Source of the DNA: Chlorobiota bacterium
GTDB lineage: Bacteria; Bacteroidota; Ignavibacteria; OLB7
Direction of reading: 5' to 3'
NCBI GenBank assembly: GCA_016788565.1
Contig: JAEUSP010000065.1
Location: 1 to 64,000 of the forward strand
Length of the DNA: 64,000 bases
Shown: positions 5,342 through 34,634 of the stretch, one piece after another
How the letters are laid out: each line of letters starts with the position of its first letter
Position numbering within the stretch: the stretch's first letter is position 1
Program-made: the position numbers and the translations under genes
Notes under the pieces: generated by a model
Told to the model about the DNA's origin: nothing
What the model saw: only the letters and a program-made list of their open reading frames with translations
Database searches by the model: none

Positions 5342-6133
5342 ATGACTATGGCGCACACACTGAAGTATGGCGCAGCAGAACTGAAGCGTTTCTACAACCC
5401 GAACCTGCGGACGGCGTTTATCGTCTCGATAGTGTTCCACCTGCTGCTGCTTTCCATCCCCTTCTTGATCTCGGCGGTTGCCGCCGACACCAAGAAGGTG
5501 GCTCCGGTGGGAAAAATGAAGCTGACCAACCTTCCCCCGCCACCGCCGCCGGATAACGCCACGCCGCCGCCGCCGCCACCAATGATTCCGCCAAACCTGC
5601 AAACTGGCGGGACCGGAAACGGTGGTGTGGCCGCCCGCGCCGGCGTGCCGATTGCCGTCCCCGACGCATTGATTACGCCCGAGATGCAGAAGTTCGCAAC
5701 CACCGATGTTATCTCCGTTGCCACCCCAGAAGGGGGCGATGGAACCGGCTTCTCCATTGGCGACGGCGACGGCTTGGGTGCCCAGCAGATTGACGTAAGC
5801 AAGACGGAAGTGAAAGAAAAAGAAGAGGCCAAAGACCCCTATGAGTTCGTGCCTGTGGAGAAGGAGCCGTCGTACGACGAAAGCGATTTACAGCGGCGGG
5901 TGAAGTACCCGGAAATCGCCAAACGCAACGGCATCACTGGCCGCGTGACGGTGCGCGTCTATGTGAGCAAAACGGGCAAAGCCGAGAAGTGCATTATTGA
6001 GCAGAGCGACAACAAAATTTTGGAAGAAGAAGCACGCCGCGCGGTGCTGGAAACGGTGTTCACACCGGCAATCCAGAACGGCAATCCCATCGGTCTTTGG
6101 ATGTCCATTCCGGTGAACTTCCAGTTGAACTAA
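5342..6133 (+). CDS. tonB: TonB energy-transducing protein
   Basis: This 263-residue protein spans the periplasm and passes energy from ExbBD to outer-membrane TonB-dependent receptors. The start is set at ATG 5342 because an AGGAG sits at 5326-5330; an upstream TTG at 5321 lacks such support. A single membrane anchor lies near residues 24-42 (FIVSIVFHLLLLSIPFLIS). Proline-rich linkers follow (LPPPPPPDNATPPPPPP), then the C-terminal TonB domain of about 90 residues: RRVKYPEIAKRNGITGRV, VRVYVSKTGKAEKC, then VLETVFTPAIQNGNPI. It is the last gene of the exbB-exbD-exbD-tonB cluster. Confidence 0.95.
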   Translation: MTMAHTLKYGAAELKRFYNPNLRTAFIVSIVFHLLLLSIPFLISAVAADTKKVAPVGKMKLTNLPPPPPPDNATPPPPPPMIPPNLQTGGTGNGGVAARAGVPIAVPDALITPEMQKFATTDVISVATPEGGDGTGFSIGDGDGLGAQQIDVSKTEVKEKEEAKDPYEFVPVEKEPSYDESDLQRRVKYPEIAKRNGITGRVTVRVYVSKTGKAEKCIIEQSDNKILEEEARRAVLETVFTPAIQNGNPIGLWMSIPVNFQLN

Positions 6134-6171
6134 CTAATCTTGCTGCCGGATTTTGCACAGTTGGAAAAACC

Positions 6172-6208
6172 ACAGCACCTTCCGGCAACGGAGGGTGCTG
6201 TTCCTTTT
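6172..6208 (+). terminator. Rho-independent terminator after tonB
   Basis: A 13-bp stem (acagcaccttccg pairing with cggagggtgctgt, one G-T pair) with a 4-nt loop is followed by ttccttttg. It sits 38 bp after the tonB stop and closes the operon. Confidence 0.8.
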
Positions 6209-6369
6209 GTGGGGGATGGCTGCGCAGTTAGGCCGTTCCTCTTTTTTGCGTAAGCATCCTGAACAAAACAACGGCGATGCTGCGGGGGGCAGGTGTGATT
6301 GGCGAAGATTACACCCTACGACCCGCCGATACCATTGCCATTAACTCACATTCAGCCATCTTTACAGCC

Positions 6370-6600
6370 ATGCGTGGTAATTTGCTTTGGGTTGGCTACA
6401 TCTTGGGCGTTGCAATGTTGGTGATGGGCATTCTGATCCTTTCGGGCTTTTTCCAATTACGGGGAACCGAGGCGGGGCAGATGTCGCTGATGCAAACGGT
6501 GTTTGGCGTTGTTCTGCTGCTGTACGGCATCTACCGCTTGGTGATGACCGATATGCAGCGGAAACGCGCAGAACGTGAGGAGGGGGGGAACAACCGATGA
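6370..6600 (+). CDS. Small two-helix membrane protein
   Basis: This is a 76-residue protein starting at ATG 6370; the open frame extends 31 codons upstream without support. It has two hydrophobic helices, about residues 5-27 (LLWVGYILGVAMLVMGILIL) and 41-58 (LMQTVFGVVLLLYGIYRLV), then a charged tail (MQRKRAEREEGG). Its stop overlaps the start of the PstS-like lipoprotein gene (ATGA), so the two are translationally coupled. I do not recognise a named family; it may assist its partner at the inner membrane. Confidence 0.7.
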   Translation: MRGNLLWVGYILGVAMLVMGILILSGFFQLRGTEAGQMSLMQTVFGVVLLLYGIYRLVMTDMQRKRAEREEGGNNR

Positions 6601-7589
6601 ACAGAACTCCAATGGTTTGTTCCAGCTTTTTCAGAAAAAATATCTACCAGCCGTTGGGTGTTGCCGTGTTCGGATTGGCGGCTCTGTTGGCGGTGCTGGC
6701 CTTTGCCGGCTGCGAAACTTCCCCGCCAGGAACCAGCCGCCTGACATCGGGCCGATTGGTGGTGGCGGTGGATGAGGCGTATGCCCCGCTGTTCCGCACA
6801 TTGGCCGATAGCTTCATGGCCCGCACACCAAACGCCAAAATAGAAATCCAAGCGATGAGCCCACGGATGGCGGTTCAATATCTGTTGGATCACTACAACG
6901 ACACCACGGCTTCCTTTGCTGCAATTGTAGGGCGGCGATTCCTTCCCGATGAATCGGCTGCGATTGCCAAAGCTGGCTTGCAGCCACGCCACTACTCCAT
7001 TGCTTACGATGGCCTTGCCGTGGTGGTCCCGACCGATTCCCCCCTGAAGCAAACCACACGGGAAGCTCTGGTTGCGGCGTTGCGCTCCCCTTCGCCAACA
7101 ACAAAGCAGCTGGATAGTGCCGCCGCGGCTAACCCGCTATCATTCGTGCTTCCCGACCAGAATTCTTCGGCGTTCGCGCTTCTGCGAACACTCCTTGTCC
7201 CCGACTCCATCGTGAAGGCTTCGGCACACTACGTTGCCAGCCCTGACTCCGTCAATACTCTGGTGGCCGATGGCAAAGGGGTTGGAGTTGTTGGCTGGTA
7301 TGTTGCCCACCGCGACAGCGTGCGGCTACGGACGCTGTACATGGGATATACCGATAGCCTGGGCCGCCACCACACGCCAGCGCGCGTGCATCCTTCCTCC
7401 CTTGTCACCGATGTCTATCCGTTGAAGCAACCGATTGTTGGCTACACTTTTGCCGACCCCAAATCGGTGGCCAATGGGTTTTTGATTGCTGTTTCCAAAG
7501 GGCGCGAATCGCAGCGGTACATTGTGGAGCAAGGGCTGCAAGCCGAAAATGTGAAACTGCAATTAGTGCCGACCGGAGCCGAGGAGTGA
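6597..7589 (+). CDS. PstS-like periplasmic substrate-binding lipoprotein
   Basis: This 330-residue protein has a signal peptide ending in a lipobox (AFAGC, about residue 40). It then has a periplasmic binding protein fold of the PBP-like/PstS type: RLVVAVDEAYAPLFRTLADSF, the DGLAVVVPTDSPLKQTTRE hinge region and LKQPIVGYTFADPKSVANGF. No permease or ATPase genes follow, so it is not part of a visible ABC transporter. In this lineage such orphan PstS-like lipoproteins are often found next to TonB motor genes, as here. The ligand (phosphate or other anion) is not evident. It is coupled by a 4-nt overlap to the small membrane protein upstream. Confidence 0.8.
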   Translation: MNRTPMVCSSFFRKNIYQPLGVAVFGLAALLAVLAFAGCETSPPGTSRLTSGRLVVAVDEAYAPLFRTLADSFMARTPNAKIEIQAMSPRMAVQYLLDHYNDTTASFAAIVGRRFLPDESAAIAKAGLQPRHYSIAYDGLAVVVPTDSPLKQTTREALVAALRSPSPTTKQLDSAAAANPLSFVLPDQNSSAFALLRTLLVPDSIVKASAHYVASPDSVNTLVADGKGVGVVGWYVAHRDSVRLRTLYMGYTDSLGRHHTPARVHPSSLVTDVYPLKQPIVGYTFADPKSVANGFLIAVSKGRESQRYIVEQGLQAENVKLQLVPTGAEE

Positions 7590-7781
7590 GGTTCAGAAAG
7601 TGGCGTTACAGAAAAACAGCCGTTTTGTCATCAAGCCGAAACAAACATCTTGCGTCACTGAAGCCGGACAACGGGAACCTGAAGAGGAGAGAGTTTCCCG
7701 AATCCCTGGGGCGCAAGCGATTGCCGTAGCGTAGTTTTTCAGCGTACAAAACTCTCCTTCTGCCGTACTCATTCACAGACC

Positions 7782-9542
7782 ATGACCATGCGTTCATTCA
7801 GTTCCGCCGCACGTATTGCGGCAATCGTTCTCTTCTCAGCATTGCTGACCGTGCCCGCCGCTGCACAAGGGAGCGCGTTAGATCGCGCCCGTGCTGCCGC
7901 CAGCGAAGGGGATTTTACCAACGCAGCACGCTTGTACGACGAGGCCGTTAAAGAAGCACCAAAAGATGAAACCGTGCTTACCGAAGCCGGTGATGTAAAT
8001 ATGGAACTGGAGCGGTACGCCACCGCCCGCGATTACTACAAACGGGCAGTGGATCGCGACAGCAAAAATGAGGTGTTCAACCGGAAATATGCGCTATCCC
8101 TTTCGGCATTGGGAAGCCATACCGAGGCGGTTGAGGCTGCCCGCAAAGCAATGAAAAGCGATGATGGCTCCCTGGAAAGCAGCATGACGCTGGGCCAAGT
8201 GCTGATCAACGCCGGCAAGGACTCGTTGAACACAGCGGAGCTTACCATCCTGACCGCCAGCAAAAAATTCCCCAACGCACCGGAACCGCAAACAGCACTG
8301 GGCGATCTTTATTTTGCCCGTGGCGTGTACGAGCTTGCGCAGACCTACTACGAAAAAGCCCTATCGCTTGATGCCAAGCTGATTGATGCGCGGGTTCGGC
8401 TTGGGCGTTCCTATCGTGAAATGGCCATCCGCTGCCCCGACCTTGAGTGCGCCAAACCATACTACTCCAAAGCCTTGACTGAGTACAACGATGTCACGGT
8501 TCGCGCCCCAAAAAACGCCCGTGCATGGCTGGAGCAAGGGGAGATTTTGATGTTGGCACAGGAGTATGAAAAAGCTGGCCAATCGTTCACCAAGTATGTT
8601 GAGCTTCGGCCCGAGGATCCGCGTGGTGACATCTTGCTTGCACGCGCCGCCTACGAAGGACGCTTTTACTTGCAAGCAATCGAACCATTGGAGCGGGTGC
8701 TTTCGCGAAACGACTCCATCTCCAAGGAGTTTGCCAGCCGCGCCCACTTGATGCTTGGGCTATCGTACATGGCCGACAAGAAGTACGACAAAGCACGCGA
8801 TGCCTACGCCCGCGTGCCGGACGCAATGATGCAGCGTAAGGATCGCAACTACTACGCCTCGGCAATCCTGACCTCCGGTGGTGACACTGCCAAGTCGCTC
8901 AGTATCTACCGCCAACTGCTGGAAGAAGACCCGAACGATTGCAGTCTCAGTTTGCAGTTGGGGAACATGTACTACAAGATGAAGAAGTACGCCGATGTGG
9001 TAGAAGTCTTCAGCAAACGGATTCAGAACTGCCCGAACGAGCCGAAGTACACGTCATATCTGTTCATTGGGTTGTCGCAGTTTTCCTTGCAGCAGTATGC
9101 TCAGTCGGCCACGTCGCTTCACCAAGCCATTGCTGCCGACAGTTCCGAGGCCGATGGCTACTTCTGGCTGATGAACGTCTATGCAAAAGCCGACTCTATC
9201 AACAAGGCCGCAGAAGTTGGGCGGGTGTTCACCGCTCGCAGCTTTGATGAAACGGTGAAGGAGAACGCAAGCAAGCTATCAACCGCCTATTTCTTTATGG
9301 GCTTCGATAAGTTCAACGAAGGGAAAAACAAGAAGAACAACAAAGCCTTCACCGAGGCGATTGCCTACTTCGAACGTGCCGCCAAACTGAACCCAGATAA
9401 TGGCCAGAACTACCTGTTCATGGCGTACTGCCACCAATATCTGAACGAAAAGGAGGGGGCCTGCAAGAACTACCGCCAAGCATTGAAGCTGGACCCAAGC
9501 AACGCAAACATCAAGAAAAATCTTTCCGATTTGGGATGCTGA
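7782..9542 (+). CDS. Secreted/periplasmic TPR protein
   Basis: This 586-residue protein starts at ATG 7782 (another ATG lies 2 codons on). A signal peptide ends near AAAQG (residues 24-29). The rest is almost entirely tetratricopeptide repeats; recognisable units include YKRAVDRDSKNEVFNRKYALSL, YYEKALSLDAKLIDARVRLGR, YFERAAKLNPDNGQNYLFMA and YRQALKLDPSNANIKKNLSDL. It is a scaffold for protein-protein contacts in the periplasm. It lies between the TonB-associated genes and the DUF1573 genes and has its own terminator. Confidence 0.88.
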   Translation: MTMRSFSSAARIAAIVLFSALLTVPAAAQGSALDRARAAASEGDFTNAARLYDEAVKEAPKDETVLTEAGDVNMELERYATARDYYKRAVDRDSKNEVFNRKYALSLSALGSHTEAVEAARKAMKSDDGSLESSMTLGQVLINAGKDSLNTAELTILTASKKFPNAPEPQTALGDLYFARGVYELAQTYYEKALSLDAKLIDARVRLGRSYREMAIRCPDLECAKPYYSKALTEYNDVTVRAPKNARAWLEQGEILMLAQEYEKAGQSFTKYVELRPEDPRGDILLARAAYEGRFYLQAIEPLERVLSRNDSISKEFASRAHLMLGLSYMADKKYDKARDAYARVPDAMMQRKDRNYYASAILTSGGDTAKSLSIYRQLLEEDPNDCSLSLQLGNMYYKMKKYADVVEVFSKRIQNCPNEPKYTSYLFIGLSQFSLQQYAQSATSLHQAIAADSSEADGYFWLMNVYAKADSINKAAEVGRVFTARSFDETVKENASKLSTAYFFMGFDKFNEGKNKKNNKAFTEAIAYFERAAKLNPDNGQNYLFMAYCHQYLNEKEGACKNYRQALKLDPSNANIKKNLSDLGC

Positions 9543-23181: not shown

Positions 23182-24855
23182 CTATCTCCTCTCATTTTTT
23201 AAAATAGAATTAACAATGCTATTGGATTTGAGATCATCTCTAGAGCTATTCCCATTTATTCCAATAGCTGCAGTTGAATAAACAACAGAAGTAATTCGTG
23301 CTAATAGAAGATCATTTTGTTGCTTTGATTCAATTTTGAAAGAATTCAACGACTCACGAGTCTGATCAATCGCAGATATTAGTTTATCTAACTTTGTTTC
23401 GACGGATGCGAAATTTATTTCGACATTTTTAGGAGTATTATTGTTATAACTTTTATTGCTCAACCAGTGCATTAAGATTCCCGGCAAATACCACTGCGGC
23501 GCATTGATAATCGCCTCATACTGATCCTTTTTGCTGTCAATATTTTTGTTTTTTGCAGGATCGCTTGCTGGTTCAAAAAGCATAAGGAGCATTATTGCTA
23601 ACGTGATTAACCAAGCATCTACTGTTTGCACGCGCTTATCTTTTTGAGCTTGAGTAAGAAAAGTCTCTCCTCCTATTAATTTACGAGACCCATAACGTCT
23701 GCATTGGTAGCGGTAAAGAACCAAGGCTATCATCGGTATCAACAGCAACGCAATCCCACGCCACTGAACAAATCGAAGGGCATTTTGCATAAATGGCACT
23801 GTTTTCCCTGATCCTACGTCGCTATCTGTTATCACATTTTTTTTCGCTGTGTCTCCAATGGAAGCTGTGTTCACAGCTGGGGTAATAATTTTATTAAAAT
23901 ATTGACTATGATCTGTATTTAACAAAGCAATGTTAAATACAGCTGTATCTGAATTCTGATAACTCTGCGGCCGCATAAGTTCCGATGGATACCAAAGGAT
24001 GATAGCAATGATGCACAAGGCAAACCCACCAGCCAATAAGGAATTTCGACCACCCGGTCTAAATTTGTTTTCTGGAGCCTTCTTCTCGGAAGGAATTTTA
24101 GAAAAACGAATAAATTCGATAATAAACCAAAGTACACCAATCATAATTGCTGCTATCGCTATCCTATGCATTAATTTACTCCATGGTACAGCATAAAGCC
24201 CTATTGAAGCTAAGAGGACGATATTCATTATTAAAAATGGAACATGAAAAAGCAGATAATTTTTTCCATGAGCTACAAACTTAATATAGAGATAGTAGAT
24301 GGTAATCCCAGCCACAACAGTAGCTATTGTCGTGATGATTTCATGGGCAAAAAATGGTAAAACTATAATGAATCCTAAATAAATACTAATAATAATCAAT
24401 AATAGTGGCATCCGAATTTTAAACCAGTGAGTATAATAACTATTATTGTTACCAGGATTTTTATCTTGAGTATCTTGTGATTGTTCTTTCATCACAAGAT
24501 CAATATGCCAAAGAATAATCAGCAACATCGGCAAAGAGAAATAGAGTGCTGCAAACATCCGAAATGCCAGACCCAGATCTAAACCGAATGTCTCAGCCAG
24601 CCCTGCAGCTCCCTTGGGGACAAACGCTGTGAATCCTACAATTGAGAGTAAGGCCACCACGAATTTTTTCTGTAGCTCTTTTGATGACTCGTTAGCGATA
24701 ATTGCAGAAATGTTTTCATTCTGCAATGGCGTACTTTTAAAGGCCACCACGAATTTTTTCTGTAGCTCTTTTGATGACTCGTTAGCGATAATTGCAGAAA
24801 TGTTTTCATTCTGCAATGGCGTACTTTTAGGAGTAGTTTGTTGTTGGTTTCCCAT
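23182..24855 (-). CDS. Polytopic membrane protein of unknown function (AT-rich cassette)
   Basis: This 557-residue protein has about nine predicted membrane helices, for example FRMFAALYFSLPMLLIILW, PLLLIIISIYLGFIIVLPF, IAIAAIMIGVLWFIIEF, LAGGFALCIIAIILWY and WLITLAIMLLMLF. The cytoplasmic N-terminus contains a perfect 30-residue tandem duplication. The C-terminal about 90 residues have coiled-coil character (VETKLDKLISAIDQTRESLNSFKIES). It shows no transporter signature I know. It is in an operon with the exported protein downstream and shares its AT-rich composition. Confidence 0.7.
   Translation of the reverse strand: MGNQQQTTPKSTPLQNENISAIIANESSKELQKKFVVAFKSTPLQNENISAIIANESSKELQKKFVVALLSIVGFTAFVPKGAAGLAETFGLDLGLAFRMFAALYFSLPMLLIILWHIDLVMKEQSQDTQDKNPGNNNSYYTHWFKIRMPLLLIIISIYLGFIIVLPFFAHEIITTIATVVAGITIYYLYIKFVAHGKNYLLFHVPFLIMNIVLLASIGLYAVPWSKLMHRIAIAAIMIGVLWFIIEFIRFSKIPSEKKAPENKFRPGGRNSLLAGGFALCIIAIILWYPSELMRPQSYQNSDTAVFNIALLNTDHSQYFNKIITPAVNTASIGDTAKKNVITDSDVGSGKTVPFMQNALRFVQWRGIALLLIPMIALVLYRYQCRRYGSRKLIGGETFLTQAQKDKRVQTVDAWLITLAIMLLMLFEPASDPAKNKNIDSKKDQYEAIINAPQWYLPGILMHWLSNKSYNNNTPKNVEINFASVETKLDKLISAIDQTRESLNSFKIESKQQNDLLLARITSVVYSTAAIGINGNSSRDDLKSNSIVNSILKNERR
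24650..24829. repeat. Perfect 90-bp tandem duplication inside a coding region
   Basis: 24650-24739 and 24740-24829 are identical base for base. The unit encodes 30 residues (STPLQNENISAIIANESSKE plus flanks) and keeps the frame. Perfect identity means either a very recent event or an assembly artefact. Confidence 0.95.
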
Positions 24856-24904: not shown

Positions 24905-25909
24905 CTACCCCTCCGCAAACCCCCGCGGCACTTCGGGAAGTGTTGATAGGTCAAGTGCTAATTGCGTTTTGCCGCCGTCGGCAAGGGCGATTATGGTGAA
25001 GGCTCCGTAGGCGTAGCGTTCCAGTGTGGCTTGGCCATTTTTGGCGGTTACGGGAACTTTTGCTTGCGGGAAGGTGTGATGAACCAGAAAATAGACCCGC
25101 CCCTCAATCGGCTTCCCCGAACCAACCGGGGCTAACCTCACCCGAATATGATACCAGTCGGGATCGTCCTCATCCGCCTCAACGTTGGCAGTTAATGCCC
25201 GCTCCGAATTGGCCGCTGGCAAGTTTTTGAACTGATCTACCAACGCCCACGTGTCGTCGTCGGGATCAAGGTCGGGGGGCATTTTTATGCTGCGAATTAA
25301 TTGCTGCAATGCAGCATCGCTTGCCTCAGCCAATGGAGATTCTGGTTGCTCCATTGTATTTTTTATTTCTGGTGGTGCGGCTGCTTCCGTTGGCGTTTCC
25401 GTTGCCATTTCTCTGTTCAATGGCGCGGCAAACGATCGCTCCTCCGTTTTTCGCGCCCCTCCTGGCACTCCGCCAATTTCCCGCACCATCTGCGCTTCCC
25501 TTTTTACGGCGCGTGCGGCCTGAGCCGCCACACTGCTCACTTGCTCCTGCAAGCTGGATTGCGCTGTCTGAATTTTCTCCTGAATTTCCGTCTGAATTTT
25601 TTCTCGATTTTCCTGCGCCTCCTTTTGAACCGCTTGGGTCTGTATTTCTACCTTTTTTTCTAACTCCGTTGCCTGGGTTTGTACCTCCTGCTTCACTTCC
25701 TCCATTTTCCCCTCAATCAACTCCTTTAAATTCACCTCCACCCCGCCGGCCTTGAAGGATTTTAGATATGGAAGAATTGCCGCAAGCCCAGCCGCAAGCA
25801 GTAGGTAGATGCTGTTGCTCTGCAACGGGCGCAGCTCGTTCATCACCACCGTAGCAAGTGCCACGGCCATCAGTATCAACCCAAGCGTTTTGATGTTCAA
25901 TGGCTTCAT
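24905..25909 (-). CDS. Membrane-anchored coiled-coil protein with C-terminal pYEATS-like domain
   Basis: This 334-residue protein has two membrane helices near the N-terminus (about 8-24 and 33-49) and a long Gln/Glu/Lys coiled coil (about 60-140, with repeated KVEIQTQAVQKEAQEN-like heptads). A disordered linker follows, then a C-terminal beta domain at about 250-330: HIRVRLAPVGSGKPIEGRVY, FLVHHTFPQAKVPVTAKNGQ, AYGAFTIIALADGG. This pattern matches the prokaryotic YEATS-like domain known from TM-pYEATS proteins of caspase- and peptidase-containing conflict systems. Its start codon overlaps the stop of the metallopeptidase gene upstream (ATGA), showing tight coupling. It probably serves as the membrane sensor or anchor of the set. 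The domain call is by eye and should be profile-tested. Confidence 0.7.
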   Translation of the reverse strand: MKPLNIKTLGLILMAVALATVVMNELRPLQSNSIYLLLAAGLAAILPYLKSFKAGGVEVNLKELIEGKMEEVKQEVQTQATELEKKVEIQTQAVQKEAQENREKIQTEIQEKIQTAQSSLQEQVSSVAAQAARAVKREAQMVREIGGVPGGARKTEERSFAAPLNREMATETPTEAAAPPEIKNTMEQPESPLAEASDAALQQLIRSIKMPPDLDPDDDTWALVDQFKNLPAANSERALTANVEADEDDPDWYHIRVRLAPVGSGKPIEGRVYFLVHHTFPQAKVPVTAKNGQATLERYAYGAFTIIALADGGKTQLALDLSTLPEVPRGFAEG

Positions 25910-27807
25910 GCTTTATCCCCTTTTTTTGGGTTATTACTTTTCCTTCCTTTCTCGTGCATCCGTTTGGTCATGCCGGGGAGTGGGGCGCGGCGGCCGTTGG
26001 TTAGGCCCCACAGCGGTGAGGCTTTTGCGAACTCGCGGGCGTGTTCCAACCGCTGTTTGTTGAGCAAACTTTTGGAGATGATGTAGCGGATTTCTCCGGC
26101 AGGATCAAGGATGATGGTGGAGCCGCCAAAAAAACACCACGAGCCGTTGTCGTCCTGGACGGTGCGGCATTGGGTGACTTCGGCAACAAGATCGAACACG
26201 ATTACTCCATCGGGGCCAGCGCGGCGCGCAAGCCGGACCGACTCCACTTCGGGAAGGTCAACGGTATCGCTCTTAAGCCGTGGGTCGTTGGGGGGAACCA
26301 GCCCGAACTCCTCCATCAACTCTGGCTGCGTCACTAATTTCCCAATCTCACGGGCTTGCCGCTTCAACTCTTCTACGCTTGCGGGCCGGCTGGGGTCGCC
26401 ATCGAACTGCATTTTGGAAAAGCTGAGTGCTGCAATTGCCGGAATGGATTTCTGCGGGCCGCGCCAACAGAGTGCTTCCTCCGAAAGGTTCATCACTTCT
26501 TCGGGATAGATGCCGCGCCGGCGGAAGGCGGCAATCCATGCTTCGCGGTAAGCCCAGGGGTCGTCGGGGGCCAAGTCGCAGTCGGCGGTGATGACGGCGC
26601 GGAGGAAATCGCCGAACTCAATATCTACCGGCGGGCAAAAATCAATCGCCCGCACGCAGATGGTTTGGAATTGGCTGGCAAGGTCGCTGGCTTCTTCGGC
26701 CAGCACGTCAATCAGGTAGTGGGGGATTTGCCCGGCGGGAAGGATTCCGCTGCCGTTGGTTGCCAGCAGCAAGTAGCGGTCGGTTTTCCGTTTGAACAGC
26801 ACTAGGAACGCCTCGAACACCGCCGCCACCAGCACCGACCCAAGCTCGTGAGCCTCGGGGCCAGCATCGGTGTAGCTGCGCGGCTGCTGAACAATGCCAT
26901 CGGTGGTTTGTTCGGTAAGATCAATGGCGGTGCGGAGTGAGTTGACCCCGCCAAGCGCCCGCCCGAACTGCCCGGCAATCTCGGTCAGGAATTTTGCTTG
27001 CTCCAATTTCCCCCCCGATTTTTTCAACGCTTGGATCAGCACCTCACGGTAGGTGAAATGCTGGAAGATTGCCACCAGGTCGGCAAAGGCTTCGTGGAAG
27101 GCGGGGACGTCCTGGTTGCTGGGAAAGAAGAAGTGCGCCCGAAGCCCATCTAACAAAGCGTGGGTTACTTCGTGGGCGATGACATCGTGTGAAAGTGCGG
27201 TGAAAATTCTCCCGCTGGGAAGACCACCAGTGGCATTCTGGGTCGAAAAATATCCGAAGGCAATCTCGCCGTTCTCGTGGTCGTAGTAGGCGTTGGGGCC
27301 GTCAAACGCATGGGGCCGAATCCGTAGCCGAGCGGGGTCGGAGTTGCCGCCAGTTGTTCCCGACGGGGCAACGTCGTAACCCCAGGCAATGTCGCGCCCC
27401 AACGCCCGCCGGAACGCAGCGTGAACCAAGCTGCAAACGGCATACACCATCTGCTGGTGGAATCGTGGTTCGGAAAGTGAGGGGGGGAAGCCATCGGTGA
27501 TTAGCTGCTTGGGGTCATCCAAGTCGGCGGCTTGGTACTGCTCGCTGGTGGTGTCGTTGCGGTCATCCACCAGAAGCAGTTTCCCTTTTGGTCCCGGCTC
27601 TACTTCCTCGTAGGGGACGTTGACCGTGGCAATGGCCCCATCCAACCGCGAGACCGAGGGGTCCAGCGTGTAGATGCGGAGCGGGCGGTAGGTCGCGTCC
27701 CCCGGCTTGCGTTTGTAGGGGCGGGCATGAACCGCGCGTGCCACCCGCTCACCCAACACAAAGTTGGTTGGGGAATTGGCATGATGTTGTGCTTGATGAT
27801 TGTTCAT
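25906..27807 (-). CDS. Thermolysin-like (gluzincin) zinc metallopeptidase without signal peptide
   Basis: This is a 633-residue protein. The zinc site is H212-E213-V-T-H216, with the third ligand probably E239 in AFHEAFADL and Asp243 four residues on, as in thermolysin (E166/D170). It differs from secreted M4 enzymes in having no signal peptide or propeptide, so it is expected in the cytoplasm. The C-terminal half (about 400-630) is unfamiliar; it contains YPEEVMNLSEEALCWRGPQ, VQDDNGSWCFFGGSTIILD and a helix with KSLLNKQRLEHAREFAKAS. It starts 23 bp after the caspase-fusion gene and overlaps the pYEATS gene by 4 nt, which places it in the same operon. Confidence 0.8.
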   Translation of the reverse strand: MNNHQAQHHANSPTNFVLGERVARAVHARPYKRKPGDATYRPLRIYTLDPSVSRLDGAIATVNVPYEEVEPGPKGKLLLVDDRNDTTSEQYQAADLDDPKQLITDGFPPSLSEPRFHQQMVYAVCSLVHAAFRRALGRDIAWGYDVAPSGTTGGNSDPARLRIRPHAFDGPNAYYDHENGEIAFGYFSTQNATGGLPSGRIFTALSHDVIAHEVTHALLDGLRAHFFFPSNQDVPAFHEAFADLVAIFQHFTYREVLIQALKKSGGKLEQAKFLTEIAGQFGRALGGVNSLRTAIDLTEQTTDGIVQQPRSYTDAGPEAHELGSVLVAAVFEAFLVLFKRKTDRYLLLATNGSGILPAGQIPHYLIDVLAEEASDLASQFQTICVRAIDFCPPVDIEFGDFLRAVITADCDLAPDDPWAYREAWIAAFRRRGIYPEEVMNLSEEALCWRGPQKSIPAIAALSFSKMQFDGDPSRPASVEELKRQAREIGKLVTQPELMEEFGLVPPNDPRLKSDTVDLPEVESVRLARRAGPDGVIVFDLVAEVTQCRTVQDDNGSWCFFGGSTIILDPAGEIRYIISKSLLNKQRLEHAREFAKASPLWGLTNGRRAPLPGMTKRMHEKGRKSNNPKKGDKA

Positions 27808-27830
27808 CGGTGTGCCGTATCACAACTGGG

Positions 27831-30656
27831 TTAGAAGGGAAGGAGTAGCGAACGATGCTTCAGAAGGTCATCGCACCACAGCTCCGGGGTCTGGTCGACC
27901 CAACCGGTGAAGGATGTGGTGGTCAGCCGCAAAAACTCGGCATGGCTGATGTTGATTCCATACCTCGCCAGCACCTGCGTGGCGGCTATGGTGAAATCCC
28001 CGTGCCCGTAGTGCTCTTTTGCTGTTTGGCGTGATGTGCAGGCACTGAACAGGATGTCGCGCTGGGCGCGATCGTTGAGTGCCCGGATTCTTCCCGGTTG
28101 CTGCCTGCGGAACTCCGCTTTGTTAAGCTCCTTCATCTGCTGTGTGGCGACCATGAAGCGCGAGCGGCCCCCTGCGGATTGGCGCGCATTGCCCCCTCCG
28201 GCTCCGAACATCCGGTTGCTTGTGCCGGAGTGGCAGCAGTCAATAAAGTGAGTAAGATTCACCCTGGCGGGAAGGCCGGCGGTGATGGCGGCGATGTCGT
28301 CATCAAGGATGCAAGCGGATTGATCGAAATCAATCGGGACAAAGGCTTCATCCAGAGTGTCGCGCTCGTCTTGTGTGGCTTCGTCGCCATTATGGTCGGG
28401 TAGCTGTGTTCCATGCCCGGCAAATTGGAAGACGATGACATCGCCGGGTTGGCTGGTTTCCACAAGCTGCCGCAAGTTGGAAAGCATCCTCTGGCGTGTG
28501 GCGGCTTCGTCTGTCAGAAGGGTGACGTGGAATCCAAGCGATTCCAGCGTTTCTTTCCACCGTATGGCATCGGCAACGCAGCCGCGAAGTTGGAAGTTTC
28601 CACCATAGTTGTTGATCCCCACGCACAAGGCACGGCGATTCCCGGAAGCCGGGACGATGATGTGTGAGCCCGAACACCCAGCAGTGCCATGGAATGTTGA
28701 TTGCTGATGTTGTGAGCCCGAACACCCAGCAGTGCCATGGAATGTTGATTGCTGTTGTCCTGTTCCCAGCCGCGAGCCAATCACCCGCAAGCCTTCTGGC
28801 CAATCCACTTGCCCTTCCCAGGAGCGGAGCTTGTCGGAGTCAAAGTCGCGCTCGCGCGGGAAGCTCTGCTTGAGTGGGGCAGTATCGGGAAGGTCTATCA
28901 CGCGCCGCAGGATGCTTTCCATTGTTGGCGGGTCGTTGTCGAAATCGCCGTGCTTGGTGGCGCGTGTCGCGCTTCGTCCGCTGGTTGCTCGCGTTGTGGA
29001 CCAGATGACCTCGGCCGTGGGGGAAGCCGTGCCGCGCAGTCCAAACAAGTTCTGCAACGCACGGTCATTCAGCACCGATTCCTGCAAGCCCAGTATCGGC
29101 GTTTCCGGTTGCGGCTCAAGGGCGTGATGAATCAGGTAAAGAAGGGATTTCCGATAGACCACCATGCAGTTGTCGTCCCGCTCGAAATCCTTCTTCATGG
29201 TGAACATTGACAAGTGCTTCACCCCCGCGCCCAGTGTTCCCGCAAGCCGTGATTTGAACTCATCCACCCGAATTGCCGGGGCCATAAAGTGGAGTGTGCG
29301 GAAGGTTGGTCCACCCGCAGTGGCCAACACCGTCGGGACGAAGTGGGAGTGAAAAATGGAGCCTGCGCTGTGGCCAACGGCGTGCAGTTCAATATCCTTT
29401 GTGCCGCCGCTGGCTTGCAGGAATGCGGCTAACTGCTGGGCGGCGTAGTTGGCTCCGCCAGCGGGGCTGCTTGCCATCATCGCGTTCTGCTTCATCCCAG
29501 TCCAAATGCGCTCTCCGTACAAGGCGCGTGCGGCGCGTTCGATGAACGGGTCGGTGGTGTGATCCCAAAAGTCGCGCGTGCCACGGCCCGTTCCCGAAAT
29601 TGCCCGCTGGAGCATCGCGCCAACCGTCTCGAACAGCCCCGTTTCCCAAGCGAAATAGATGGGATAGACTCCGTTGGCAGTCCACCACGGGATGTGCGTA
29701 GCCGCAATTTTCAGGGCGTTCGATTCGCTGACCAACCCGCCGTGGGCGTAGAACAGGATGCGGAGTTTTTCTTTGGCAGCCTGGCGAGCTTTCAGTTCGG
29801 CGGGGAGGTGTTGTTGGAAGATTGCATCAACGTCACCCTTATCGGTGGTGAAGATGCCGGTGGAGGAAAGCATCCCCGATGTGAGGTTAATGACGTACCG
29901 GCGAAGCTCGGCCAACGTCTTGGAAGTAAGATCATCACCGCCACGCGAGCGGGTGTTGTTGCCGTAGCTTCCCCCTCGCGATAACGCCTGCAACGTCGGG
30001 TCTTCCGATTCCTTCAGCTCGGCATCGGCGGGGTCCAACCGGAAGCTCTGGGCCCTATGTTGTTTTGCCAGATCGAACACCTGCAAGGCTGATGGATCGA
30101 AGGGGCGGACCTTTGGTGACGATGGCGGAGCCGTGCGAATGGCAGCGATGTGAGCTTTAAGATCTTTCAACAACGCTGGCCGATCAATGCCGCTTCCCGG
30201 GCAGCTTTTTCCCGACATCTCGTTGTGGAAGCGGAGCTTATCGGGTGAAAGATTGAAGCAAAGTTGGATGCGGGCAATCAACTCCAACACCGATTTCCGC
30301 TGCAGGCCTTGCAGGACATCGCTGTCGAAGTCGCCGATCATCGCAATCATAAACGGCCCATGCGTTGCTGATCCGTTGTATCCGCTTGCGCTGGCGGGGG
30401 GGGCATCCCAGTTTCTGCCCAGCCAGATTGTGCCATCGGGGGCAACGGTGGCGTGCTGGGCGAAGTCGCTCCAGCCGTAGGTTTTTGTGTGGTGATCGTA
30501 CATGGCCACGATTGTCTGGTGGCCTTTGTACTGGCTGTGGTTTGGCCACCACGTGTGGTGCAGATGCACCTCGGTAATCTTGCGGCGGAATGGAAGATAG
30601 TGCTCAACAAACGCCGCAAGATCGGTTGGCTGTAGTTGCTTAAATGGAGGAGGCAT
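27831..30656 (-). CDS. Amidase_2/PGRP-like, alpha/beta-hydrolase and caspase-like fusion protein
   Basis: This 941-residue protein has three enzyme-like modules. (1) About 28-165: amidase_2/peptidoglycan-recognition fold, with zinc-ligand candidates in VHLHHTWWP and HNEMSGKSCPGSG. (2) About 300-520: an alpha/beta hydrolase with LRILFYAHGGLVSESN and the nucleophile elbow VGHSAGS (Ser430). (3) About 670-941: caspase-like peptidase (C14) starting RALCVGINNYG, with His748 in FAGHGTQ and Cys808 in DCCHSGT. The linker before the caspase carries a tandem 16-residue repeat. No signal peptide is present, so the protein is predicted cytoplasmic. It is followed by a metallopeptidase and a TM-pYEATS-like gene, and preceded by a metzincin gene. 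A role as a self-directed effector is inferred. Confidence 0.85.
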   Translation of the reverse strand: MPPPFKQLQPTDLAAFVEHYLPFRRKITEVHLHHTWWPNHSQYKGHQTIVAMYDHHTKTYGWSDFAQHATVAPDGTIWLGRNWDAPPASASGYNGSATHGPFMIAMIGDFDSDVLQGLQRKSVLELIARIQLCFNLSPDKLRFHNEMSGKSCPGSGIDRPALLKDLKAHIAAIRTAPPSSPKVRPFDPSALQVFDLAKQHRAQSFRLDPADAELKESEDPTLQALSRGGSYGNNTRSRGGDDLTSKTLAELRRYVINLTSGMLSSTGIFTTDKGDVDAIFQQHLPAELKARQAAKEKLRILFYAHGGLVSESNALKIAATHIPWWTANGVYPIYFAWETGLFETVGAMLQRAISGTGRGTRDFWDHTTDPFIERAARALYGERIWTGMKQNAMMASSPAGGANYAAQQLAAFLQASGGTKDIELHAVGHSAGSIFHSHFVPTVLATAGGPTFRTLHFMAPAIRVDEFKSRLAGTLGAGVKHLSMFTMKKDFERDDNCMVVYRKSLLYLIHHALEPQPETPILGLQESVLNDRALQNLFGLRGTASPTAEVIWSTTRATSGRSATRATKHGDFDNDPPTMESILRRVIDLPDTAPLKQSFPRERDFDSDKLRSWEGQVDWPEGLRVIGSRLGTGQQQSTFHGTAGCSGSQHQQSTFHGTAGCSGSHIIVPASGNRRALCVGINNYGGNFQLRGCVADAIRWKETLESLGFHVTLLTDEAATRQRMLSNLRQLVETSQPGDVIVFQFAGHGTQLPDHNGDEATQDERDTLDEAFVPIDFDQSACILDDDIAAITAGLPARVNLTHFIDCCHSGTSNRMFGAGGGNARQSAGGRSRFMVATQQMKELNKAEFRRQQPGRIRALNDRAQRDILFSACTSRQTAKEHYGHGDFTIAATQVLARYGINISHAEFLRLTTTSFTGWVDQTPELWCDDLLKHRSLLLPF
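28663..28758. repeat. Two 48-bp tandem repeats in the caspase-fusion linker
   Basis: Copies 28663-28710 and 28711-28758 differ at one base. On the coding strand each encodes 16 residues containing QQSTFHGTAGCSGS. They sit immediately before the caspase domain (residues about 633-665). Confidence 0.93.
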
Positions 30657-30770
30657 AGTGATGCTGGTTAGTAGTCATTAGTTTTTCAGTTTTTTTAGTC
30701 ATCGGCTGCGGCCTGCCACGCGCTGTTTGCGTGGCAGGCGTTTGAAGTCTGTGTCTTCTTCAATATCGGG

Positions 30771-31829
30771 TTAGCCTTTTCGCACCTTCACCGTGTAGTT
30801 TCCGGTTCCGTTTGCCAGGTTGTAGTGGCGGATTTGAACAAGGTAGGTTCCGGGGAGCAGCGTGGCGATGATGCGGGCGTTCAGCCCAACGCCGCTGTCG
30901 TCGTCCTCGGCAATCAGTGCTGTTTGGCTGTTCGGGCCGAAGAGTTTCATCACCAAGTCGGTTGTGCCGCCGGTTTCCACCACATATTTCCCGGCTTTGG
31001 TCACTTTAAATCTGAACAAGTCCTCTTCCCCGGTCTTCCCGATGGATGCTGACTTTGGAACCCCACCTATTGTCAGCAGCACCGGCTCGGCAGTCGTGGC
31101 CGTTTTTGGATACGCTTGCGAGGAAGCGATGAACGATTTATCCAGCGCCGACAACACCGAGTTAGAGTGAGTGCTGATGCCATTAATCGTCCAGGAAGCA
31201 GGGAAGGCATAGAGCATGATGGAGTCGTGGTCGAACACCGTTCCCCGGATTTGGCTGGTGCTGTACTTGTTGATGACGTTGTGGCGGATGGTGGCTTCGT
31301 CCCAGAAATTTGGCGAGCCGCTCAGGTCGTGGATCACTTGAGCTTCGTTCCACTGAATCCCTCCGGTAGGACTTAGATGCTCATGCCCCAAGCCAATAGC
31401 GTGGCCAAATTCATGGGCTGCGGTTCCGCCGGTCATAAACCCGAGATTCATGGTGGGTTGGTTCAGCGGAATCCCCTGGCAGTCGGTGCCGACGTAGCTC
31501 CAGGCGCCATCGTTGGCGTTGAAGGCAATGCGGATTTCGGCATCGGGAGCATCGTTAAAATCGAAGTGCAGGTTGGCGTGTTCGGTCCACCAGAGTGCTT
31601 GCTGGCGGGCAAGATTTTTCTGGGCGGCGGTTCCCCCCATAAACCGCACCCGAAGCGTTGAGCCGTTAGGCCACATTTTGCTGATGACGATAATCGCACG
31701 CGCCCCGCCACCGCGCCCAATTGTTAGCTGGGGGCGCGCAAGTTCGTGGGCTGGCAAGCGGTCAATGCAGACGTGTGGGCGTTTGGTGGCTGCGGCTGCT
31801 GGTTTCTCTTTTCGTGTTGAAGCTGGCAT
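30771..31829 (-). CDS. Metzincin metalloprotease with C-terminal PPC-like domain
   Basis: This 352-residue protein starts at ATG 31829, which has a strong AAGGAGAGGGA site just upstream; the frame stays open for 91 more codons to 32102 but without a good start. The zinc motif is H139-E-F-G-H143-A-I-G-L-G-H149, the metzincin HExxHxxGxxH of astacin/matrixin-type proteases. The region before it (WPNGSTLRVRFMGG ... HANLHFDFNDAPDAEIRIAF) has the expected fold. From about residue 255 there is a pre-peptidase C-terminal (PPC) domain (GEEDLFRFKVTKAGKYVVET, DDDSGVGLNARIIATLLPGTY). No N-terminal signal peptide is visible, although PPC-bearing relatives are normally exported. It lies 114 bp upstream of the caspase fusion on the same strand. 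Confidence 0.83.
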   Translation of the reverse strand: MPASTRKEKPAAAATKRPHVCIDRLPAHELARPQLTIGRGGGARAIIVISKMWPNGSTLRVRFMGGTAAQKNLARQQALWWTEHANLHFDFNDAPDAEIRIAFNANDGAWSYVGTDCQGIPLNQPTMNLGFMTGGTAAHEFGHAIGLGHEHLSPTGGIQWNEAQVIHDLSGSPNFWDEATIRHNVINKYSTSQIRGTVFDHDSIMLYAFPASWTINGISTHSNSVLSALDKSFIASSQAYPKTATTAEPVLLTIGGVPKSASIGKTGEEDLFRFKVTKAGKYVVETGGTTDLVMKLFGPNSQTALIAEDDDSGVGLNARIIATLLPGTYLVQIRHYNLANGTGNYTVKVRKG

Positions 31830-32651
31830 GGATACTCCCTCTCCTTTGTGGTAAGGCGAAATGAATGGATCGTTATGATGGTGCGGCGTTGCTGCTAACC
31901 TTCGGGTGGTTGGCAGTTGATGGTGGCGTAGCCCGTTTGCCACAGTGCGTTTGTGGTACGCTTGGTGCTGTGGCAGGTGTATCGGCGGCGGCAAGGTGTT
32001 GTTGGGCGGATGTCGCTCCCCCAACGCGCCTTTGCCGTGGCGATAGATATGTGGTACAGGAAGGTCCGCAAGCATTCCAGCAACGGTTGCAACGGCGCGC
32101 AATCACTGCGGCGGCGTAGCCCCATTCAAATATCTGGGAATGCAAGATTGCCGGTTGGTGCAGAAAGACCGGCGCGCTAAACGGGTGAGTTGCGAGGATG
32201 GAATCGGGAGGAATTGCAACGCATCTTTGACATCTCTTTTGGCATCGCTGAGGCCACGCCCCAGCCAGCGTTGCCACCGCAACCCTGGTTGCAGGATGAA
32301 CTACAACCAGGGTCCTCCTTGCGGCGAATTCTCTTTTGTCACAACAGGCTTCCGTCAGCAGTGTAATACAGTAGATACGATGCCGGCAACCTTTAAACTG
32401 TGGTGCATCGGTTTGCCAAAGACGGAGCCGTTGCCAAAAGAGGAAGAAAAGAACTACTGCTCACGGAATAATCCCCAGCCAAGTATTTGAACAGAGTTTT
32501 AGCAGAGCCTTAGTGGTGGCGAAGAGCTATGCCCCAGTTTGCTGCGCTGTTCGTGGGTGCAAATTTACGGCATCAGCAAAGCCGATGCACCACGACAAAA
32601 CCACGACAAACGGAGCGGAGGGGGGGGGGGAGTATCTATCTCAGAAAAAAA
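31830..32651. other. Intergenic region between regulator and metzincin genes
   Basis: This stretch of about 820 bp should hold the promoter of the hydrolase locus. It contains a 9-bp inverted repeat (ccctggttg ... caaccaggg, about 32283-32314) without a T tract, and a run of about twelve G near 32620. The open frames across it (for example 32140-32490 plus, 31873-32277 minus) have no recognisable features and mixed reading direction, so I call no gene. Confidence 0.4.
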
Positions 32652-34307
32652 TCAGAGGGCAGCCATGTAGGTGGTGAGGCTGGTTTCGGTTGGGACGCGG
32701 AGTTTTTTGCGGATGCGGAAACGGTACTGCTCCACCGAGCGGTAGTCAATATGAAGCAGGTTGGCAATCTCCTTGCTGGAAAGTCCTGAACGGATCAGCG
32801 CACTGACCTTCCGTTCGGTGGGGCTAAGGTCTGGGAATCGCTGTGCAAGCAACGGCATGAAGCCGTGGTGAACTTGCTCAAACTGATCTTCAAATTGCTT
32901 CCAGGCTTGGCCGGGATTTCGATCATCGTGCAGTTGGCGAATCAGGGATTTTAGATTTTCTTGCTCGCTTGGGGTGTGGCTATCGTTGGCGGCAATCTGC
33001 GTTAGCTTGATGCGAATGTCTTCGATGAATTGGTTCCGCTCCACCAAGCTCAAGGCAATCGCCCGTAGCTCGCGCTCCTTCTGGGCGGCCTCGGATTGCA
33101 GTTGCTGGCTTTGCAGCCGCAGTATCTGCAGCTCCTGCTGGGCGCGTTCAACGTCAAATCGCAGATGAAGCGTGGCAATCGCTTTCTGCTTTTCGATGCT
33201 TTGCAGCTGGTCGCGAATCTGGGCAAAGTGCTTGTAGTGGCCCAGTGCACGTGCGGTGTCGTGAAGCTCCTCGAACGCCTCGGCAAGCAGTTCATGGGCG
33301 CGGTACTCCAAGTGGGGAAGATTTCTTGCTTGGGCAATGCGGAGCGCTTCCTCGATCAAGTAAATTCCCTGATGTAGGGTGTTGGTTTTCCGGTGCAGGC
33401 GGCCCAGGCCAAGCAGTACGCCGATGTAGCCTTCTTCATCGCTGCGGTCGTCCAAGCCATCCATTGCACGTTTCATGTAATCGAATGCGCTGGCAAACTC
33501 CCCTTGTTCTTCCAGAATGCTGGCAATGGTCATCATCAGCCGTGGGATGTCACGCTGATAACCCAGGATTCGGTACAACGTCAGTGAGCGCAATCCGTGT
33601 TCCAGTGCTTGGTCATTCTGGTGCAAAGCGTGGTGGGCGGCGGCGATATTTCCTGCGGTGCGTGCTTGCATCATCAGGTTGCCCGATTCGGCAAACATTG
33701 CCAACGCTTGGGTGAATTGCTCCAATGCCGCATCGTAGTTTTCCATCTGGCCGTACAACGCGCCGATGTTGCTGATAACCCCAGCCCGCACATCCGAAAC
33801 GGGATCGTGGGCGGCAACGAACTGAAGTAGCTGCAAGTACCAATCCAACGCCGCCACGTAATCGCCAATGTCGGTGTGAAACCGGGCAAGCGACTCTAAA
33901 GCATCTATCTGGCCGGTGACGTAATTGATGTTTCGGGCAAGCTCCAGGGCTTGGGTCAGCTTGGTGGCGGCAATCCGTACCTGGCCGTTGTGCCACTGGC
34001 CTTGTCCCATCAACAGCAATGCGTTCGCCTCCCCCTGGCGATCGTCCATCCGCTGGCGAAGCTCCAATAGTTCGGAAAGAAAGGATTGTGGAAGAGGGGT
34101 GTGGGGAAGTTGGAGGTACAGCCGGCAGCAGAATTCTAAGCAGCTTGCAACGTGGTGGTGATTGTTGGTTAGGCGGGCAGTGGCCAAGGCTTCTTCGGCA
34201 AACGCCCTAGCTTGGTGGGGGCTATCGCGCAGTGCCTGGTGGGCATTATCTAACAACTGAGCAATGTGTGTAAACTGCTGATCGAGGAGGTCATCATGGT
34301 TCGGCAT
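32652..34307 (-). CDS. TPR / coiled-coil / LuxR-type HTH regulator
   Basis: This 551-residue protein starts at ATG 34307 with GGGTGAT in front; an upstream TTG would add 17 residues. About seven TPR units fill residues 20-340 (for example GNIAAAHHALHQNDQALEHGLRSL and HELLAEAFEELHDTARALGHYK). A coiled coil follows (about 345-410). The last 65 residues form a LuxR-type DNA-binding domain: LSPTERKVSALIRSGLSSKE, then LLHIDYRSVEQYRFRIRKKL. No membrane helix is seen. This architecture is typical of Bacteroidota TPR regulators that sense through the repeats. It lies upstream of the hydrolase locus in the same direction, separated by a long gap, so it may control it. Confidence 0.88.
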   Translation of the reverse strand: MPNHDDLLDQQFTHIAQLLDNAHQALRDSPHQARAFAEEALATARLTNNHHHVASCLEFCCRLYLQLPHTPLPQSFLSELLELRQRMDDRQGEANALLLMGQGQWHNGQVRIAATKLTQALELARNINYVTGQIDALESLARFHTDIGDYVAALDWYLQLLQFVAAHDPVSDVRAGVISNIGALYGQMENYDAALEQFTQALAMFAESGNLMMQARTAGNIAAAHHALHQNDQALEHGLRSLTLYRILGYQRDIPRLMMTIASILEEQGEFASAFDYMKRAMDGLDDRSDEEGYIGVLLGLGRLHRKTNTLHQGIYLIEEALRIAQARNLPHLEYRAHELLAEAFEELHDTARALGHYKHFAQIRDQLQSIEKQKAIATLHLRFDVERAQQELQILRLQSQQLQSEAAQKERELRAIALSLVERNQFIEDIRIKLTQIAANDSHTPSEQENLKSLIRQLHDDRNPGQAWKQFEDQFEQVHHGFMPLLAQRFPDLSPTERKVSALIRSGLSSKEIANLLHIDYRSVEQYRFRIRKKLRVPTETSLTTYMAAL

Positions 34308-34634
34308 TCTATCACCCTGAATGTGAAGGAGGATCAGTTTGGCTGTAGAATGTGGCAAATATGCAACGCGGACGAAGATTATTTGCTGAAATGTCGGAAA
34401 TGTCGAATGCCGCCCTCTGCTCGTGCTGAAGCTCCGTCGAGGTATGAGTGGAGCCAGCGAACCCAGCCGCCTTCGCTGCCTGCCCTCACCCCCCGCCCTC
34501 TCCCAAACTGATGGCGGTGCTGATTCCGCTTTATTGGCCGGGTGGGAGAGGGAGCCAAAGCGAAGAGTGAAGAGTGAGATGGGAAGAGTGAAAGAAGACC
34601 CCCGATCCCCGCTCCCCGCCCACCGCTCCCCGCC
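34308..34634. other. Intergenic region with GC-rich iterated sequence
   Basis: 327 bp between two minus-strand genes. It includes an inverted repeat (cgccctctccca ... tgggagagggagc, about 34495-34555) and, at about 34598-34636, iterations of cccgatccccgctccccgcccaccgctccccgcc. The latter is the reverse complement of the gggatcgg/ggtggacggg repeats found between dcw genes. No gene is supported. Confidence 0.45.

Follow-up and report, generated by a model that had tools for sequence, protein, structure and literature searches.

The window, which is the whole stretch of 64,000 nucleotides that was analysed, contains two adjacent genes that recur together in distant bacterial genomes. The first encodes a fusion of an amidase, an alpha/beta hydrolase and a caspase, the second encodes a gluzincin. 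That the fusion and the gluzincin form a unit is well supported. We tentatively propose, at rather less than an even chance, that they are the core of a patchily distributed and probably mobile two-gene cassette for what we infer to be proteolytically gated cell lysis.

The pair lies among four minus-strand ORFs within 24905-31829. These were described in the earlier note as co-directional genes with intergenic gaps of 114, 23 and -4 nt, and the ORF coordinates confirm this. The same genes are found in one syntenic relative, L004. The features of the locus are as follows.

30771..31829, minus strand: metzincin (astacin-type, with a C-terminal PPC domain), accessory gene; 352 amino acids from ATG, assigned by Pfam and synteny
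27831..30656, minus strand: amidase/hydrolase/caspase fusion, core gene 1; 941 amino acids, assigned by Pfam, solved-structure matches and alignments
25906..27807, minus strand: gluzincin, core gene 2, directly 3' of the fusion; 633 amino acids, assigned by motifs and predicted fold
24905..25909, minus strand: P0001, with a hydrophobic N-terminus, a coiled coil and a C-terminal pYEATS domain, accessory gene; 334 amino acids, assigned by Pfam
32652..34358, minus strand: TPR protein with a LuxR-type DNA-binding C-terminus, possible regulator; syntenic in L004
23182-24855 and 22045-23178, same strand as the operon: P0005 and P0006, AT-rich genes; gaps of 49 and 3 nt

The listed ORF of the metzincin begins at a TTG at 32102, and the ATG-based ORF is 31829-30771. 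All four genes of the operon are under purifying selection, with dN/dS of 0.13-0.29 against the L004 orthologues, and therefore represent more than chance.

Domains of the encoded proteins

The domain calls made previously for the four proteins are borne out by Pfam, by matches to solved structures, by active-site motifs and by the predicted folds of the gluzincin and the caspase. The fusion consists of a PGRP/T7-lysozyme-like amidase (amino acids 1-170), an alpha/beta hydrolase (approximately 240-600), a disordered linker (approximately 603-670) and a caspase (670-941). The predicted model of the whole fusion has a pTM of 0.50, therefore its domain arrangement was not used. The DNA encoding the linker that precedes the caspase domain contains a 48-bp unit repeated 2.1 times (window positions 28658-28758).

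The caspase part matches Peptidase_C14 in Pfam at 2e-25 and has the dyad H748/C808. The His and Cys are kept in all 27 fusions of our alignment, from which L006, L018, L022, L034 and L086 were excluded. Structural alignment of the predicted model with 3bij gave a Z of 28.6 at 3.0 A over 244 residues, the VIA-align matches for the fusion model falling on the caspase part only. By profile, dyad and fold this part is a member of the caspase superfamily (C14).

The first 180 amino acids of the fusion match solved amidases, T7 lysozyme and PGRPs, the best at 6e-7. With the Amidase_2 profile at 0.01, 22 of the 27 fusions are matched, and the window protein is among those that are not. H34 is conserved in all 27 sequences and H144, K150 and C152 in 26; these four are candidate zinc-ligand and catalytic residues. 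Three amidase residues are missing in L035. The catalytic tyrosine of T7 lysozyme is represented by Gln in 26 of the 27 fusions, and this counts against a lytic function.

The hydrolase in the middle of the fusion is marked by a GHSAG motif, and its candidate residues are S430, D495 and H569. An alignment of 44 of the 70 listed pieces has the Ser, Glu and Asp in every sequence and the His in 40, the remaining four having gaps. The profile of the hydrolase matched nothing in the PDB below an E-value of 0.5.

The gluzincin contains the motif H212 E213 xx H216 plus E239. These residues, together with H320, are kept in all 32 aligned gluzincins, an alignment that takes in 32 of 87 loci. The predicted model (pLDDT 88.7) has a thermolysin/fungalysin fold at amino acids 35-445 and an extra C-terminal domain at approximately 510-625, which is perhaps NTF2-like, as suggested by weak Foldseek matches. 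VIA-align superimposed the model on the M36 fungalysin 7z6t with a Z of 25.2 (3.6 A, 319 residues) and on thermolysin 4tln with a Z of 21.4 (4.5 A, 288 residues), the M36 and M4 structures together spanning Z 20.2 to 25.2. Foldseek gave no match for the gluzincin at or below 0.001, its best matches being orange carotenoid proteins at E 0.03, and the likeness to thermolysin comes from this second look with VIA-align. The HExxH motif, the distal Glu and the predicted fold place it among the thermolysin-type gluzincins.

These features are shared with the M36 and M4 peptidases. Unlike them, the window gluzincin has no match in Pfam, nor in NCBIfam or PADLOC, up to 0.1, has no hydrophobic N-terminus and carries the added C-terminal domain. 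The Pfam Peptidase_M4 profile leaves the window protein unmatched up to 0.1 and matches two of the 32 aligned gluzincins, at 0.03 at best. Cargo of a Type VI or eCIS apparatus was also considered and rejected; the lone eCIS_core match, at 0.021 in one of the 32 gluzincins, was treated as noise.

The three enzymes of the operon had been reported to lack export signals, and a hydropathy scan, which is a simple scan and not a signal-peptide predictor, agrees in finding that their N-termini are not hydrophobic. The same scan found no hydrophobic N-terminus in any of the 27 aligned fusions or 32 aligned gluzincins.

The metzincin matches the Pfam families Astacin (3.5e-9) and PPC (1.6e-6). Its best NCBIfam match is to the beta-glucuronidase AbsR1 model (2.1e-46; 158.5 bits, far under the cut-off of 650), a name that is unexpected for a relative of metzincins. 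The C-terminal domain of P0001 had been called pYEATS-like, and this identity holds; it scores 29.2 bits with the Pfam family (PF20305), above the gathering cut-off of 26.9.

Distribution of the pair and of its neighbours

A genome collection was searched with the gluzincin and the best 80 of 477 relatives were kept. Fusion domains lie directly 5' of the gluzincin in 30 of these 80, and all three domains are present in 24. Of the remaining six, L009 and L029 have the amidase and caspase, L022 and L035 the hydrolase and caspase, L018 the amidase and L034 the caspase; L022 and L034 are interrupted by contig ends, and in L006 the fusion is split over two frames. A further 48 of the best 80 have an MBL-fold hydrolase 3' of the gluzincin on the same strand, and two near contig ends (L007, L017) have neither. 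None has both in the fetched stretch. When the window, two loci from its own phylum and four plasmid records are added, the 87 loci divide into 32 with the fusion, 53 with an MBL, two with neither and none with both, phmmer finding no MBL in the 32 fusion-side loci as far as they were fetched. According to their record titles the fusion-side hosts include Pseudomonadota, Acidobacteriota, Desulfobulbaceae and a cyanobacterium, in which the pair is carried on a plasmid. In L029 the region just 5' of the amidase-caspase/gluzincin pair (5407-8051) encodes an Ig-domain protein and another caspase.

The pairing in the 80 loci is seen from one side, because the loci were found from the gluzincin. Searches from the fusion side covered 398, 399, 249 and 247 partly overlapping genomes, at limits of 0.001, 1e-40, 1e-20 and 1e-20, and 148 own-phylum genomes twice. 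Fusions are sparse, occurring in 3/398, 3/399, 1/249 and 3/247 genomes, counts that include one amidase-caspase case and the centre genome of each set, mostly picked for having a fusion. The gluzincin adjoins three of the five new three-domain fusions (G990, G1517 and G1451). It is absent beside the other two, in G306 (L139), where 1.6 kb of contig remain beyond the fusion, and in G218 (L140). The partnership is therefore common and not obligatory. These two fusions without a gluzincin, and those without a hydrolase (L009, L029), count against the proposed lysis cassette.

The gluzincin tree places 31 fusion-side members on one side of a single branch with SH-aLRT support of 99. It was built by a quick method, with no bootstrap, from 84 rows after stop signs had been removed from the translations; L001 (the window itself), L007, L017 and L086 were excluded, and L003 and L035 have long branches. 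Distances between fusions correlate with those between their gluzincins over the 20 loci present in both alignments (r 0.90, a value reached in none of 2000 permutations), and the correlation is still 0.90 without the window and L004.

The accessory genes have a different distribution from the core pair. The earlier note had proposed the pYEATS protein as a sensor and had named recurrent co-occurrence across distant genomes as support for a system. Such recurrence is seen for the fusion with the gluzincin and is not supported for the metzincin and pYEATS genes, which phmmer found at the locus, among the loci searched, only in the window and in L004. The Pfam pYEATS profile matches somewhere in three of the 30 genomes of fusion-side loci, inside the fetched locus in L004 and outside it in the other two. 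L004 has the same four genes in the same order, flanked as in the window by an epimerase and the LuxR-TPR gene, and these are the only cases of this order found. Because the flanking genes and the four genes are shared in order, the window and L004 are one lineage and not independent recurrence. Although the L004 record is titled Armatimonadetes, the two appear to belong to one phylum, since the phylum samples around each share matches at identical contig coordinates. A system of all four genes built around pYEATS was rejected, the accessory genes being found at the locus in the window and L004 only. P0005 and P0006, of about 35% GC, were likewise rejected as members, being found in none of the other loci searched, L004 included. 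The gene at 23182-24855 contains a perfect 90-bp tandem duplication (24650-24829).

The flanks of the fusion-side loci were called with a simple script, and 91 of the 145 listed flanking proteins were scanned. No Pfam family occurs in more than three of the 91, as judged from 25 of the 98 families listed. PADLOC at 1e-8 matches eight families, each in one protein, and the protein matching LmuA (L013) is probably ComEC-like. Similar flanking ORFs form clusters of which the largest covers six of 30 loci, at varied positions and on both strands, and the four members looked at are histidine kinase-like. Three Granulosicoccus loci share more flanking genes, as expected for one genus. No holin-like or sensor gene recurs beside the pair in the flanking ORFs of fusion-side loci (25 of 98 families listed), and this too counts against the proposed lysis cassette.

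Possible functions of the pair

The main argument for envelope lysis comes from relatives of the alpha/beta hydrolase outside the pair. The fusion-side searches gave 43 loci in which this hydrolase is joined to a papain-like peptidase. At least six of these also have a muramidase or GH19-like domain (L096, L097, L100, L160, L165 and L167), a lower bound as loci are truncated. Pfam was run on eight of the 43 and found Peptidase_C1 in all eight, Muramidase in one (2e-54) and Glyco_hydro_19 in two, one of them below the cut-off. This hydrolase is thus combined in one chain with a wall-degrading enzyme and a peptidase, and the parts used differ.

The cassette reading is also favoured by the conserved motif residues, by the folds of the caspase and the gluzincin, by the sparse occurrence of the fusions and by the plasmid-borne pair of the cyanobacterium. 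The proposed lysis would proceed as follows. The fusion and the gluzincin appear to be synthesised and retained in the cytoplasm, since none of the aligned members has a hydrophobic N-terminus. The caspase and the gluzincin could act as a protease pair, one activating the other or trimming the fusion, a step suggested by their pairing and co-divergence. On domain logic, the activated alpha/beta hydrolase would damage membrane lipids, and the amidase would then reach and cut the peptidoglycan so that the cell opens. In the lineage of the window, the membrane pYEATS protein and the metzincin may have been added, perhaps for placement and regulation. Pneumococcal LytA is not known to be fused to a protease. 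It provides a precedent as a lytic amidase without a signal peptide, in the part of PMC12029793 drawn on here, and no relation is claimed.

The 53 MBL-side loci speak for another explanation, abortive infection against phage, in which the gluzincin would be the protease and its effector, ordinarily an MBL nuclease, would here be the lysis fusion. The two MBL proteins that were scanned both hit LmuA of Lamassu (8.7e-10 and 1.8e-10), with weaker matches to RTasMBL and, for one of them, a match to Avs1a as well, and the only upstream ATPase scanned, in L085, matches LmuB at 3.9e-24. Published pairs work through activation of the MBL nuclease by the protease, in the portion of PMC12799240 used here. 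Taken by themselves, the 91 flanking proteins described above give no defence-island signal, and the pair has no known phage sensor. We regard this explanation as possible and rather unlikely. An interbacterial effector with a lytic payload, delivered by contractile injection or released on lysis of some cells, fits the non-hydrophobic N-termini and the range of targets, which takes in wall, ester and protein. Two of the 91 flanking proteins have RHS-type domains, and a Tle1-like lipase lies near one MBL-side locus. No immunity or delivery gene recurs next to the pair in the flanks (25 of 98 families listed), and we find this reading improbable.

The two proteins might instead be cytoplasmic turnover or recycling enzymes without a killing role, acting as AmpD does on muropeptides. 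AmpD-type Amidase_2 proteins are cytoplasmic, and many of the flanking families are metabolic. The sparse distribution argues against housekeeping of this kind, as does the fusion of hydrolase relatives to muramidase or GH19-like domains, which are expected to need the polymeric wall; such a role seems distinctly improbable. Finally, the genes could be unrelated hydrolases that are neighbours by accident, as the confinement of the metzincin and pYEATS genes at the locus to the window lineage might suggest. For the core pair this is contradicted by the recurrent pairing and the co-divergence of the fusion and the gluzincin, and we consider it very improbable indeed.

Relation to described systems

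Fusions of Amidase_2 with a prokaryotic caspase homologue (metacaspase) were reported by Asplund-Samuelsson et al. in 2012, in four sequences from four species. One of these also has a GDSL-like lipase and was termed a seemingly highly destructive weapon (PMC3501461). In comparison with the proteins in the part of that paper drawn on here, the window fusion has a different hydrolase, with GHSAG, and an adjacent gluzincin. In the VMAP ternary systems of Kaur et al. 2020 a caspase always neighbours an alpha/beta hydrolase (PMC7159879, as excerpted). Here, the hydrolase and caspase are fused, together with an amidase, and no MoxR, vWA or VMAP match was found in the seven proteins scanned around the locus. 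The earlier note knew of no system with exactly this four-gene set, and none was found in the open-licence literature, which omits most subscription journals; the fusion-gluzincin pair likewise found no account there.

Tuck et al. 2025 described MBL nuclease-protease pairs and canu, and cited 'other diverse families' of proteases (fig. S2; PMC12799240). The systems in the sections used here resemble our loci in coupling an effector enzyme with a protease, and the MBL-side gluzincins adjoin LmuA-like MBL proteins. The window pair differs in having a thermolysin-fold protease, a lysis fusion as putative effector and no MBL, none being matched among the seven window proteins scanned. The gluzincin-MBL loci (L036-L083, L084, L085 and L087) look like another branch of the MBL-protease pairs. 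The gluzincin is fused behind an S8 peptidase in 20 MBL-side loci, and a patatin-like lipase precedes it on the same strand in six (L039, L044, L067, L071, L076 and L081). On a Methylorubrum plasmid, a SIR2-pYEATS protein adjoins the S8-gluzincin-MBL locus (L084, 11471-12865).

It is possible, if doubtful, that a single metalloprotease family supplies the activating protease, interchangeably, both to DNA-destroying MBL enzymes and to a one-protein envelope-lysis machine made of a wall amidase, a lipase and a caspase. If so, the pair would represent a new class of bacterial systems for programmed lysis under protease control, and proteases with a thermolysin fold would join those that act by proteolytic activation in bacterial conflict. 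The gluzincins, widespread but lacking a curated family name, would gain a testable role. The fusion would be a caspase protein equipped to break the wall, and perhaps the membrane, with domains of its own, and might correspond in bacteria to lytic cell death.

The reading of the fusion as a phage or prophage lysin was rejected. Phage records gave one match, to the caspase part alone, and viral contigs gave six, each to a single domain. Relatives of the gluzincin were found in two of 50,697 phage records. One of them (MT836994.1, 4312-5871; 39%, 85% covered) lies in a 9.5-kb phage record that carries no annotation and derives from human faeces.
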